Positions 23,069 to 43,574 of a stretch of DNA of 64,000 nt are shown here, in pieces. The translations under genes and the position numbers were made by a program. How positions within the stretch are numbered: the first letter of the stretch is position 1; each line of letters starts with the position of its first letter. This DNA is from Barnesiella intestinihominis YIT 11860 (GTDB lineage: Bacteria; Bacteroidota; Bacteroidia; Bacteroidales; Barnesiellaceae), in contig NZ_JH815205.1 of the NCBI RefSeq assembly GCF_000296465.1, positions 449,109-513,108 of the forward strand, written 5' to 3'. The notes below the pieces were generated by a model. The model did not search any database. It was not told the origin of the DNA and saw only the letters and a list, made by a program, of their open reading frames with translations.

Positions 23069-23260
23069 GAAGTTGTTTTAAATTTATTCCGAGACAGATT
23101 GAGACCCATGTTGAAGCAGATTGGAGTCCGAGATATGCAGTCAATAGCGGGCTATTGACAAAAATCAAGGGATTCAAGATGCGACACAGGGGCTCAATAT
23201 GGCCGGAACATACCTGCTTGAAATGATAATATTATTTCTCAATAAATTTAAAACAGCTTC
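23069..23260. mobile_element. MITE-like element with 20-bp terminal inverted repeats
   Basis: A 192-bp non-coding element. The left end GAAGTTGTTTTAAATTTATT (23069-23088) and right end AATAAATTTAAAACAGCTTC (23241-23260) are inverted repeats matching at 19 of 20 positions. Both ends are flanked by TTA (23066-23068 and 23261-23263), a 3-bp target duplication of TNA type. Internally a 9-bp perfect palindrome GTCAATAGC-GG-GCTATTGAC lies at 23140-23159. No transposase is encoded. By known family behaviour, TNA duplications occur with some IS5-group elements (for example the IS1031 group); the parent element is unknown. Confidence 0.8.
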
Positions 23261-24932: not shown

Positions 24933-25663
24933 AATTCCAAAAAACTCACTTAAAGGAGATCGGCTCGACCAATACATATCTCCAAGAATCGGACAAAGAC
25001 AGACTTCTACCGGAAGGAACCATCGTTTACTGCGACATACAACGGTCTGGGCGCGGCCAACGTGGAAATTCATGGGAATCTGAGCCCTTCAAAAATTTAA
25101 CATTCAGCCTTTTACTCAGGCCAGAACATATCCCTGCCAATCGGCAATTCTTACTTTCTGAAATCGTATCGCTGGCAACTGTCGATGTTCTGAACCGATA
25201 CGCCACTGGATTCTCTATCAAATGGCCGAATGACATCTATTGGCACGACAAAAAAATTGCCGGTATTCTCATCGAAAATGTACTGAGCGGGAGTACATTC
25301 TCACGGGCTATTATCGGAATGGGGCTGAACATCAATCAGAAAAATTTTTACAGCGATGCTCCCAACCCGGTTTCATTATATCAAATAACAGGTCGCACCT
25401 ACAAGATAGAAAAAATATTAGACGAATTCACAGAGGCTTTCGGAAAGCGATATACAGACACATTTACAAACTCCTCCGACCGTATCCACAAAGAATATAT
25501 AGCGGCACTCTACCGAAACGACGGGGTATATCCGTTTTATAGCGACGGCAATATTTTCCACGCCTCTATTGCCGATGTCGAACTTGACGGTCATCTGCTT
25601 TTATCGACGGAATCGGGAGAGAAAAAACGCTTCGCTTTCAAAGAGGTTTCATTCCTGCTTTAA
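24914..25663 (+). CDS. birA: biotin--[acetyl-CoA-carboxylase] ligase
   Basis: A 249-aa biotin protein ligase that activates biotin with ATP and attaches it to carboxylase carrier proteins. Motifs: GSTNTYLQE, the biotinyl-AMP loop SGRGQRGNSWES, FKNLTFSLLLRP, IKWPNDIYWHDKKIAGIL with the catalytic lysine region, and GMGLNINQ. The short C-terminal SH3-like domain is present. There is no N-terminal helix-turn-helix, so it is the monofunctional class and not a repressor. It overlaps yjbR by 19 bp at the start and the TPR gene by 15 bp at the convergent end. Confidence 0.95.
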   Translation: METKEIKFQKTHLKEIGSTNTYLQESDKDRLLPEGTIVYCDIQRSGRGQRGNSWESEPFKNLTFSLLLRPEHIPANRQFLLSEIVSLATVDVLNRYATGFSIKWPNDIYWHDKKIAGILIENVLSGSTFSRAIIGMGLNINQKNFYSDAPNPVSLYQITGRTYKIEKILDEFTEAFGKRYTDTFTNSSDRIHKEYIAALYRNDGVYPFYSDGNIFHASIADVELDGHLLLSTESGEKKRFAFKEVSFLL

Positions 25664-26542
25664 ACGTTTCAAGAACGGACGAATAACCCCGCTGCTTTGA
25701 GGCAACTCATCGGAAAGTCCCGACAGCATGGAAAGTTGTTCCAAAAGATATTTATTGCTACGAACCCGTGCAGCAATCGTAAAATATTTTTTAGCACAAG
25801 CTATATCGCCGTTGATCACTTGCCTTTTTTCCTCTTTATATACGGAAGCAGAGATAGAAAGACCGTTCGAATCTTCAAGATACTGTTGATCTATCGATTT
25901 CAGTTTTTCCTGTCCCTTTATAGCATAATAGCTTCCCAAAAACAAGTTTGCATCAAAATTAAGAGAGTCTATATCCAAAATAGTTTTCTGAACCTCGACC
26001 GCTGCAGTATCGTTTCCAAGTAACAACAAAGCATCGGCTTTGGCTTTCAAATAATTAATTTGCCCGGGCATCACCGACAACAATTCGTCAGCAACGGCAA
26101 GTATCTTTTCAGCATCATGCCGAAACACATAATACCCCAATAAATAATTATTCGTCACCCGAGTAAACCACGGCTGTTGTTCTTTCACCAACAAAAGTAC
26201 CTGTTCATAAATGCCCGACTGTCCGATAGATCGCGACAACACGTCTATGCCGGTAAACAACGAATCCAAAGATAGTCCTTGCATTTCCGAACGAACCACA
26301 TATTGCATAATAGACGAAGAATCGTTCATCATGGCCGATGCGACAACCGCATCCACATACGTTTTCACCCTACCGGGACGGCGTTCCAACAATACGTCAT
26401 ACATAGTAACAGCCTCTTGCCACTCCTTATTGGCAAAGTGATCATCGGCTTTTCTCAACACAGTACGATACGGCATCTCGGCAAAAGCCGAAAAAGCGAT
26501 ACTACAAAAAAGGAAAAATCCTATTATCCGTCTTATATACAT
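25649..26542 (-). CDS. secreted tetratricopeptide-repeat protein
   Basis: A 297-aa protein with a signal peptide (about 1-21, IAFSAFAEM), so periplasmic or exported. Helical TPR-like repeats are visible: ADDHFANKEWQEAVTMYDVLLERRPG (about 32-57), an AEKILAVADELLSVMPGQINYLKAKADALLLLG pair (about 155-190) and VQKTILDIDSLNFDANLFLGSYYAIKG (about 195-225). The C-terminus is conserved-looking but unassigned. Function unknown; TPR proteins act as assembly platforms. Its promoter is one of the 87-bp hairpin/promoter modules described below. Confidence 0.8.
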   Translation of the reverse strand: MYIRRIIGFFLFCSIAFSAFAEMPYRTVLRKADDHFANKEWQEAVTMYDVLLERRPGRVKTYVDAVVASAMMNDSSSIMQYVVRSEMQGLSLDSLFTGIDVLSRSIGQSGIYEQVLLLVKEQQPWFTRVTNNYLLGYYVFRHDAEKILAVADELLSVMPGQINYLKAKADALLLLGNDTAAVEVQKTILDIDSLNFDANLFLGSYYAIKGQEKLKSIDQQYLEDSNGLSISASVYKEEKRQVINGDIACAKKYFTIAARVRSNKYLLEQLSMLSGLSDELPQSSGVIRPFLKRLKQE

Positions 26543-26567: not shown

Positions 26568-26662
26568 CAAAGATAGCGAAAGGTGAGTGCAGAGACAAAC
26601 GGAAATTTTATTTCCGATTTGACTATGCCGAACCGCATCCTATTTTCGTACTTACAAAGATA
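26568..26662 (-). repeat. 87-bp hairpin-promoter module upstream of the TPR gene
   Basis: Read on the minus strand, TATCTTTG (26662-26655) is followed exactly 87 bp later by a second TATCTTTG (26575-26568). Between them lie GGATGCGGTTCGGCATAG, a palindrome CGGAAAT-AAA-ATTTCCG and, abutting it, TTTG (26599-26596), which is 20 bp from the second box. The downstream box lies 25 bp before the ATG of the TPR gene. By hand alignment it matches the rsgA copy at 79 of 87 positions. Confidence 0.85.
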
Positions 26663-30688: not shown

Positions 30689-31027
30689 TATATTTGTAGA
30701 ATATCGGAGGCGGTTCGGCATAGTCAAGCCGAAAATGTAATTTTCGCTTGCCTCTGCGCTCACCTTTCGCTATATTTGTGGAATGTAAGAGTGGAGTGGC
30801 ATAGCTGGAAATATGATTTCCTCTTGCCTCTGCATTTCACTTTCACTATCTTTGAGTTGAAACTCGAAAATACTTCTGCTCGGCAGAATAAAATTAAAGC
30901 AAGCTTTGTTTTGCTCAGCTCTCGCTTATACGTATCTTTGTCACTACGAAGATAGGATGCGGTTCGACATAGCCAAATCGGAAATGAAATTTCCGTTTGT
31001 CTCTGCTCTCACCTTTTGCTATCTTTG
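30689..31027 (+). repeat. tandem array of four hairpin-promoter modules upstream of rsgA
   Basis: Five TAnnTTTG boxes are spaced regularly: TATATTTG 30689-30696 and 30771-30778, then TATCTTTG 30847-30854, 30933-30940 and 31020-31027 (periods 82, 76, 86 and 87 bp). Units 1, 2 and 4 carry a palindrome next to the -33 element (CGAAAATGTAATTTTCG; GGAAATATGATTTCC; CGGAAAT-GAA-ATTTCCG), while unit 3 is diverged. Each unit has TTTG or CTTG 19-20 bp before its closing box. The last unit (TTTG 30996-30999, N20, TATCTTTG) lies 18 bp before the rsgA ATG. See the corresponding finding. Confidence 0.85.
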
Positions 31028-31045: not shown

Positions 31046-31978
31046 ATGGAAGGTCTTGTCACAAAAAATACGGGAAGCTGGTATATCGTCCGCACAGAAA
31101 ACGGAGATTCGATACGCTGTAAAATCAAAGGTAATTTCAGGTTAAAAGGAATACGCAGCACCAATCCCGTATCAGTGGGCGACCTTGTGGATATAGAGTT
31201 AAATCCCGACCAAACGGCTTTTATCACTCGCATACACGAACGAAAAAACTACATTATCCGCCGATCGTCCAACTTGTCGAAAGAGTCCCATATCATCGCC
31301 GCCAACATAGACTATGCCTTACTGATCGTAACGGTCAATACGCCTCCGACCTCGACCACCTTTATCGACCGTTTTCTTGCCACAGCCGAGGCGTATCGCA
31401 TACCTGTATGCATCGTTATCAATAAGAGCGATACATTTACCGAAGAAGACCGGGAATATGCCGAAGCACTTCGCTACCTTTACACCTCTATCGGGTATGA
31501 CTGCCATTGTGTATCAGCGATTACCGGTGAAGGATTCGATTTCATAGACTCATTTATCGCAAACAAAATTACCCTGTTATCGGGGCACTCGGGCGTAGGA
31601 AAGTCTACGATTATCGACCGTATTCTACCGAATGCCCATGTAAAAATCGGAGCCGTATCCACTTCTCACCACAAAGGCATGCACACGACCACTTTTTCAG
31701 AGATGTACCCTTTGCCACAAGGTGGATACATTATCGACACTCCGGGTATAAAGGGCTTCGGAACTATCGATTTCAATCCCAACGAAGTGGCACATTTCTT
31801 TCCCGAAATTTTTGAGATTTCCCAAAACTGCCGGTTTAACAATTGCACCCATCGACACGAACCCGGTTGTGCGGTATTAAAGGCGTTGGAGAACCACCAA
31901 ATAAGCGAATCGAGGTATACAAGCTATTTGAGCATTATCGAAGATAGTTCGGAAGGAAAATATCGGGAAGCATTTTAA
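31046..31978 (+). CDS. rsgA: ribosome small-subunit-dependent GTPase A
   Basis: A 310-aa circularly permuted GTPase that assists 30S maturation. Start at M([14 protein letters not shown]), chosen because the promoter -7 box ends at 31027; an in-frame ATG at 31016 would overlap that box. An N-terminal OB fold (about 1-70) is followed by permuted G motifs: NKSD (G4), [12 protein letters not shown] (G1), the switch [14 protein letters not shown] (G3, in DTPGIKGFG), and a C-terminal zinc knuckle [14 protein letters not shown]. Its stop is 23 bp before the NlpC/P60 ATG. Confidence 0.96.
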
Positions 31979-36945: not shown

Positions 36946-37028
36946 TATCTTTGCATAAAGCAAAAAATGAAATGAGCCTCGGTATATCCGAGTGAACTTG
37001 TTTCGATTCACGTCTTACCCTATCTTTG
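36946..37028 (+). repeat. diverged hairpin-promoter module upstream of surE
   Basis: Two TATCTTTG boxes (36946-36953 and 37021-37028) lie 75 bp apart. Between them are the palindrome CTCGG-TATAT-CCGAG (36978-36992) and CTTG (36997-37000), 20 bp before the second box. The architecture matches the 87-bp module upstream of ssb, rsgA and the TPR gene, although the sequence is different. The second box lies 27 bp before the surE ATG. Confidence 0.65.
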
Positions 37029-37055: not shown

Positions 37056-37841
37056 ATGAAAAAAATAACACGTTCTCATAAACCTCTCATTCTCATCACT
37101 AATGACGACGGCATACAAGCCAAAGGTATCCGCGAAGTTGCCGATTTTCTAAAACCCTTAGGAGATATTCTCATAGTCGCTCCGGATGCGCCCCGCTCGG
37201 GACAAAGCTCTGCAATTACCGTAACTTCTCCCCTTCGCATGAAAGTCGTCGAAGAGCGAGATGGGTTTCTCGCAATCCGAACCAACGGGACACCGGTCGA
37301 CTGTATCAAGTTGTCGATGAACATTCTTTTAGACGAACGCCCCGACTTAATCGTATCGGGTATTAACCACGGCTCCAATTCGGGAGTAAGTGTCATCTAT
37401 TCGGGAACAATGGGGGCTGTTTTTGAAGGAGCCTTATTACATATACCTTCTATCGGATTCTCCCTTTGCAATCACAAAGCCGATGCCGATTTTTCACACT
37501 GTCGGGAACTCATTTTGGACGTATGCCAAAAAGCATTGACCCATAACCACTGGCCCCAAAACATAGGACTTAATATCAATATTCCCGATGTGCCCCAACT
37601 CAAAGGCTCGAAGATTTGTAGAGCCGCACAAGGTCATTGGACCGAAGAATATGATTGCCGGACAGATCCTCACGGACAGGAATATTACTGGCTAACCGGA
37701 AAATTTAAAAATGCCGAACCCGAAGCAACCGATACAGACGAGTATTGGTTGGAACGTGGATATGCGACGATTGTTCCCTGCACAACAGACAACTCCGCCC
37801 TCAATATCCTCCCCGAACTATCGTCGGTTCTCGGAATATAA
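37056..37841 (+). CDS. surE: 5'/3'-nucleotidase SurE
   Basis: A 261-aa metal-dependent phosphatase acting on nucleoside monophosphates. N-terminal ILITNDDGIQAKGI carries the Asp-Asp metal pair; VAPDAPRSGQSSAIT has the catalytic Ser/Asn loop; NGTPVDCIKL and SGINHGSNSGVSVIYSGTMGAV are SurE signatures. Length is normal. Monocistronic, with a promoter module upstream and a terminator downstream. Confidence 0.96.
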   Translation: MKKITRSHKPLILITNDDGIQAKGIREVADFLKPLGDILIVAPDAPRSGQSSAITVTSPLRMKVVEERDGFLAIRTNGTPVDCIKLSMNILLDERPDLIVSGINHGSNSGVSVIYSGTMGAVFEGALLHIPSIGFSLCNHKADADFSHCRELILDVCQKALTHNHWPQNIGLNINIPDVPQLKGSKICRAAQGHWTEEYDCRTDPHGQEYYWLTGKFKNAEPEATDTDEYWLERGYATIVPCTTDNSALNILPELSSVLGI

Positions 37842-43357: not shown

Positions 43358-43456
43358 TGTAAACCATACAAGGAGTCGTTTGTTTTCTTTTCGATTATAT
43401 TGGTTACCAATCAAAGATAAGATACACCTTAACTCAAAAAAAACGAATAGACCTGT

Positions 43457-43487
43457 CTTGTTCTATGCGTAACTTTCACTATCTTTG
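43457..43487 (+). promoter_or_regulatory. distal ssb promoter
   Basis: CTTG (43457-43460), 19-bp spacer, TATCTTTG (43480-43487). It lies directly upstream of the 87-bp module that carries the proximal promoter, so ssb appears to have tandem promoters. Confidence 0.55.
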
Positions 43488-43574
43488 ACGCTACGAAGAT
43501 ACGATGCGATTCGGCATAGCCAAGCCGGAAACAAGATTTCCGTTTGCTTCTGCTCTCATCTTTCACTATCTTTG
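43480..43574 (+). repeat. 87-bp hairpin-promoter module upstream of ssb
   Basis: Bounded by TATCTTTG at 43480-43487 and 43567-43574, exactly 87 bp apart. It contains GATGCGATTCGGCATAGCCA, the palindrome CGGAAA-CAAGA-TTTCCG (43526-43542) and the abutting -33 TTTG (43543-43546), 20 bp before the closing -7 box. By hand alignment it matches the rsgA unit at 72 of 87 positions. The -7 box ends 29 bp before the ssb ATG. Confidence 0.85.

Follow-up and report, generated by a model that had tools for sequence, protein, structure and literature searches.

The window analysed here, a stretch of 64,000 nucleotides from the genome of Barnesiella intestinihominis YIT 11860, carries at 30689-31027 an array of four head-to-tail units bounded by five -7 boxes and located immediately 5' of rsgA (Table 1). 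The boxes at 30689-30696, 30771-30778, 30847-30854, 30933-30940 and 31020-31027 are spaced by 82, 76, 86 and 87 bp, and CTTG or TTTG was found 19-20 nt ahead of every closing box. Both regularities of the original prediction, -7 boxes recurring every 76-87 bp and a TTTG or CTTG before each closing box, were thus confirmed for all four units. The right-end pattern was matched five times and the left-half pattern four times, compared with 0.01 and 0.00 matches expected by chance. The start codon of rsgA follows 18 nt past the final box.

Unit 3 is not a decayed copy; it represents a second type, whose central palindrome differs (AAAATTAAAGC-AA-GCTTTGTTTTGC), and near-identical sequence occurs elsewhere, e.g. 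at loci L239, L002 and L222. Decay from unit 4 to unit 1 had been proposed, with the newest copy adjoining the gene. The covariance scores of units 1 to 4 (91, 46, 40 and 100 bits) follow no steady trend and support neither claim. The additional copies cited at 26568-26662 (minus strand) and 43480-43574 (plus strand) were recognised by the covariance model as the same element.

Table 1. Elements, promoter boxes and rsgA in the window (scores are from the covariance model unless stated otherwise)
Feature	Position	Strand	Remarks
Left (upstream) -7 box of unit 1, TATATTTG	30689..30696	+	Identical layout in a strain copy (L264)
Unit 1, type-1 palindromic element with putative promoter, A subfamily (AATATC...CTATATTTG)	30700..30778	+	91.4 bits, E 1.6e-21
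Closing box of unit 1, TATATTTG	30771-30778	+	
Unit 2, degraded type-1 element	30782..30854	+	45.6 bits, E 3e-9; closing box 30847-30854
Unit 3, type-2 element	30855..30940	+	39.8 bits; closing box 30933-30940
Unit 4, type-1 element closest to rsgA	30949..31027	+	100.3 bits, E 6e-24
Putative promoter boxes of unit 4	-33 TTTG 30996-30999; -7 box TATCTTTG 31020-31027	+	Spacer 20 nt
rsgA	31046..31978	+	TIGR00157 213 bits, cut-off 100
Single type-1 element	26568..26646	-	103.1 bits; 25 nt 5' of gene 25649-26542 (minus)
Upstream box of the preceding element	26655-26662	-	
Weak type-2-like element	36964..37028	+	27.1 bits, E 3e-4; 27 nt 5' of ORF at 37056
Type-2 element, degraded, directly 5' of the ssb copy 43496..43574	43414..43487	+	21.9 bits, E 0.007; type-2 profile E 1.5e-5
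Type-1 element	43496..43574	+	87.7 bits; 29 nt 5' of ssb (43604)

Structure of the units

Every unit is one long imperfect palindrome of about 80 bp (range about 65-85 bp) with the plan AAGATAGGATGCGGTTCGGCA - variable central palindrome - TGCnCTCACCTTTCACTATCTTTG. Instead of a short palindrome abutting the -33 element, as first described, the palindrome spans the whole unit and both promoter boxes lie inside its stems. The -7 box of the unit falls within the right terminal inverted repeat. The -33 TTTG of type 1 precedes it by 20 nt and belongs to the 3' arm of the central stem. From the outside inwards the stems are AAGATAG/CTATCTT, GGT/ACC, GGCA.AG/CT.TGC, CAAA/TTTG and an inner stem. Type 2 shares the outer parts and differs in the core. 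In addition, two subfamilies differ in one base of the box (TATCTTTG, TATATTTG), and this difference is mirrored in the left arm (AAGATA, AATATA); of 69 copies, 30 have G-C and 23 have T-A at the corresponding pair.

A structure obtained from DNA folds of single sequences was then tested by pair counts; RNAalifold returned no structure for the alignment of 69 sequences. Single-strand DNA folds of eight units, including units from other genera, gave a nested stem over the full length; unit 1 and the ssb copy folded less regularly. The pair counts depend on related copies and on the structure obtained from them, but two types and several genera agree: 91.3% of cells were paired in type 1 and 90.7% in type 2, compared with 40-49% and 39-55%, respectively, for slid partners. 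For the terminal inverted repeat AAGATAG/CTATCTT the value was 93.6%. Changes on both sides were found in 15 of 26 pairs of type 1 and in 13 of 22 pairs of type 2. The stems therefore stay paired across genera via compensatory changes, and the core can be entirely different between genera yet still palindromic.

Distribution and position at genes

Further copies, which the original prediction had named as support, were found at roughly a hundred places in this genome. BLAST yielded 51 matches. A covariance model built from 69 copies, with 150 candidates scored per genome and rough E-values, gave about 118 matches in this genome; eight congeners had 42-126 each, and five element-positive genomes of other families had 15-50. 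A few of these matches are the palindrome read on the opposite strand. Of ten Bacteroidales genomes without a match to the DNA query, eight had no match to the model either, one had four weak matches and one had a single match. An order-wide DNA query matched 20 out of 393 genomes, in 9 out of 206 genera. Matches with a name include those in Paraprevotella clara and in an uncultured Barnesiella. One plasmid match was obtained, an element in a 46-kb plasmid record of Phocaeicola massiliensis. The spread is patchy. An Rfam search of the whole window assigned no family and no such element is described in the literature searched, in agreement with the earlier statement that no element of this design was known.

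Runs of ten N were noticed inside the arrays L236, L231 and L044 (C1:975404ff, C3:636710ff and C1:853014ff), so that the unit numbers at these loci are assembly estimates and may be too low. A phage origin was considered and rejected. Five of ten matching records named 'Bacteriophage sp.' were examined (MT837279, MT836672, MT836520, MT835643 and MT835991, all unverified and from Mexican fecal samples). Since they align to this chromosome at 97.6-99.3% identity, they were treated as contigs of bacterial strains; they are probably mislabelled bacterial scaffolds.

The elements occupy a defined position. Of 58 units, 54 point in the same direction as the longest nearby ORF downstream of them, and the closing box typically lies 17-100 nt ahead of the start codon, at about half of the loci no more than about 40 nt. 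The downstream genes include rsgA, ssb, ruvA, recR, uvrA, uvrB, priA, ligA and dnaX as well as nadE, ispD, lgt, galE, metF, metH, dapB, gpmI and lpxB. Eight of the downstream genes serve DNA replication or repair, a raw count that is a lead only. The units match the sigma-ABfr promoter consensus of the Bacteroidales, TAnnTTTG at -7 and TTTG near -33 (PMC7366714). In the relatives, the gene-adjoining closing box was intact in 38 out of 39 units, in comparison to 23 out of 32 inside arrays (Fisher p = 0.004; two units were re-filed by eye from terminal to internal). An intact last box fits selection on the gene-proximal promoter. Copy number and position support the original view of a portable promoter module that recurs at the starts of many genes. 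From the consensus and the selection evidence, the units are predicted to have promoter activity.

At one locus of another genome (L262, G149:C16:12000-12900) an element is located directly 5' of a tRNA gene. Here 28 bp, TATCTTTGCATCGYAAATGCGAAAATAG, are present at both element ends, the right copy extending into the tRNA gene; these repeats may represent a longer flanking duplication.

Empty and filled sites

Fifteen downstream genes were followed into eight congeners. An element was present in 40 out of 119 orthologous upstream regions, often of another type. Three empty/filled pairs, at dapB, metH and ispD, were clean at both flanks and demonstrate presence and absence at orthologous sites between species. 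All three are from the same two sister species, G006 and G007. The dapB site is empty in G007 and filled in G006, whereas metH (filled with two units) and ispD are empty in G006 and filled in G007. In the filled sites, the upstream flank continues through the host -7 box. The element comes next and closes with a -7 box of its own, directly after which the host sequence of the downstream flank starts again. No target duplication beyond the box was seen at the compared sites. A 5-bp duplication (TGTAN) seemed possible at dapB and metH and was rejected because of ispD (TGGAT vs TGTCA).

The -7 boxes on the two sides of a unit agree at the variable base in 75 out of 82 cases, but the sequence beyond them does not agree, and the right-hand box may be the end of the element itself. 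The metH locus of this genome has an A-type left box, like the empty orthologs in G002 and G006, and a C-type arm and right box, which suggests that the latter box is part of the element.

Copies at orthologous genes of different genomes are 67.6% identical, compared with 67.7% for copies at unrelated genes of different genomes and 81.5% among copies within this genome. At recR, type 1 is found in G001 and type 2 in the sister species G008; the same near-sister pair has nearly identical copies at rsgA and dapB. A shared gene thus confers no extra similarity on copies from different species, and even their type can differ, so that turnover is recurrent. Some arrays contain near-identical units, indicating that local tandem duplication also occurs. 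Within the species the units are stable: strain contigs with 98-99% identity to this genome had all of the units compared, the whole rsgA array included, and no recent movement was caught.

We consider it likely that the units form a MITE-like family of short palindromic mobile elements with a built-in promoter, which enter at -7 boxes and rebuild the promoter. Like MITEs, they are short, non-coding, multi-copy and intergenic and have terminal inverted repeats. A copy would enter a host promoter at its -7 box, and the gene would retain a -7 box at about the same distance from the start codon and acquire new sequence upstream of it. Since the unit closes with the same kind of box, further units could stack behind it or duplicate in tandem, resulting in head-to-tail arrays of which the gene-proximal unit would then act as the promoter of the gene. 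Such a course would imply a transposition-like mechanism and an enzyme acting in trans.

Units might also have arisen without transposition, by local tandem duplication at the repeated boxes, and have spread by ectopic recombination or gene conversion between promoters that share the right end, whereby one promoter would overwrite another. The units within an array are often near-identical with array-specific spacers (L231, L236, L252, L258 and L261), assembly gaps lie inside arrays, and sister species can have different element types at one promoter, all of which speaks for such events. However, the empty dapB and ispD sites are bare -7 boxes that otherwise resemble the element little and leave only 8-9 bp of homology for conversion, and types 1 and 2 share their outer arms around unrelated cores. 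We therefore regard an origin by duplication and conversion as unlikely.

Mobilisation and comparison with known systems

The original prediction had suggested looking for a RAYT/IS200-like transposase. With such a mobiliser the elements would be REP/REPIN-like or derived from IS200/IS605 and moved as single-stranded DNA by RAYT, a Y1 HUH transposase; the left AAGATAG arm would serve as a guide and pair with the box. They are indeed short palindromic intergenic repeats inserted beside a fixed short motif with no clear target duplication, and we take the order of box, arm and hairpin to recall IS200/IS605 ends. The distribution of the transposase is, however, at odds with this proposal. No Y1_Tnp gene was found in any of the eight congeners, each carrying 42-126 elements, which excludes RAYT as resident agent, and the single Y1_Tnp gene of this genome has no element beside it. 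Among the genomes examined, Y1_Tnp is present in 4 of 24 element-bearing (absent from 20) and in 21 of 26 element-free ones; in these counts, which are uncontrolled for genome size and kinship, Y1_Tnp and the element tend to exclude each other. Mobilisation by RAYT is thus quite improbable. No transposase could be linked to the element. Likewise, no longer element with matching ends occurred among the BLAST matches in this genome, a search that a parent sharing only the 7-bp ends would escape. The Y1_Tnp-like gene of this genome (L055, C1:236191-236526, 179 aa) is closely packed between genes that by eye resemble those of a beta-propeller surface protein and a TonB receptor, and it may be domesticated.

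The units could instead be operators or promoters of a regulon, with the palindrome binding a transcription factor and copies kept at co-regulated genes, many of them for replication and repair. A palindrome combined with a promoter, and the presence of ruvA, recR, uvrA, uvrB, priA, ssb, ligA and dnaX downstream, agree with this explanation. We give it very little weight, since presence is not conserved, 40 of the 119 orthologous regions having an element and often one of another type, the inner palindrome differs wholly between genera, unlike a protein operator, and most targets are unrelated housekeeping genes. For LexA in Bacteroidetes the motifs GGA-N5-TCC and CTAA-N5-TTAG have been published (PMC8565304). 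A LexA/SOS regulon was considered and rejected; neither motif is a defining feature of the element, and the pattern across species does not fit. At uvrB, elements are found in this genome, whereas only one of the eight congeners has any element there.

That the hairpin works in the transcript, as a leader, small RNA or attenuator, is hardly credible despite the compensatory changes and the possibility that units 3' of another unit are transcribed, because the last unit has its palindrome upstream of the start presumed for it, no Rfam family was matched, and G-T and A-C mismatches occur in near-equal numbers in type 1 (66:69) and lean towards A-C in type 2 (10:24), whereas plus-strand RNA should favour G-U. 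This absence of a one-strand bias indicates that the palindrome acts as DNA, as originally proposed.

The closest described case is the BrickBuilt MITE of Porphyromonas gingivalis, from the same phylum, which is also intergenic, multi-copy and non-coding with small terminal inverted repeats; it has promoter activity and has been proposed as a putative mobile promoter (PMC4596501). BrickBuilt has 23-nt tandem repeats between leader and tail, 4-bp target duplications, 12-bp ends like ISPg1/ISPg9 and a host range of P. gingivalis and P. gulae (PMC4596501). In contrast, the units found here measure about 80 bp, are palindromes as a whole, insert at -7 boxes and have no matched insertion sequence. 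The Correia repeat enclosed elements (CREE/NEMIS) of Neisseria are palindromic and MITE-like, comprise about 100-150 bp and have promoter boxes near an end. They differ in their longer inverted repeats, TA target and lineage, and neither targeting of -10 boxes nor head-to-tail stacking is known for CREE/NEMIS.

Matus-Garcia et al. reportedly described putative mobile promoters in 2012 as homologous promoter sequences before unrelated genes. These represent a statistical category, whereas the present element has defined ends, structure and target. REP, REPIN and BIME sequences are likewise short palindromic intergenic repeats with high copy number (PMC2817692, PMC3116915, PMC3733652). They are tied to a host RAYT, which the element-bearing congeners lack, are typically 20-40 bp long with a GTAG or CGTC tag and are not known to be promoters. 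On the preferred reading, the element is a previously unnamed family of 'mobile promoters', with a putative promoter and akin to known miniature transposable elements.

A more specific version of the MITE-like reading, which we put forward tentatively, is a site-specific selfish 'promoter-homing element' that recognises the core -7 box as its target, enters next to it, restores the promoter with the start site in place and is moved by neither RAYT nor a matched insertion sequence. As the promoter would be restored, insertion would be nearly harmless or even useful and always correctly oriented, and the central palindrome might vary freely while staying palindromic. If the MITE-like reading is right, many housekeeping promoters of these gut bacteria, among them those of rsgA, ssb, ruvA, recR, priA, uvrA, ligA and dnaX, would be supplied by a spreading DNA element, different versions of which would have been received independently by species at one gene, and promoter evolution by invasion would become testable. 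An element that targets -7 boxes and spares the promoter would also lend itself naturally to promoter tagging in Bacteroidales.

The window furthermore contains a classical MITE of 192 bp at 23069-23260. It has inverted repeats of about 20 bp (GAAGTTGTTTTAAATTTATT) and, apparently, a 3-bp duplication of TTA, and this genome contains about 32 full copies with 94-100% identity. It is absent at the corresponding place of the strain contig MT835643, which indicates that this MITE was recently mobile.
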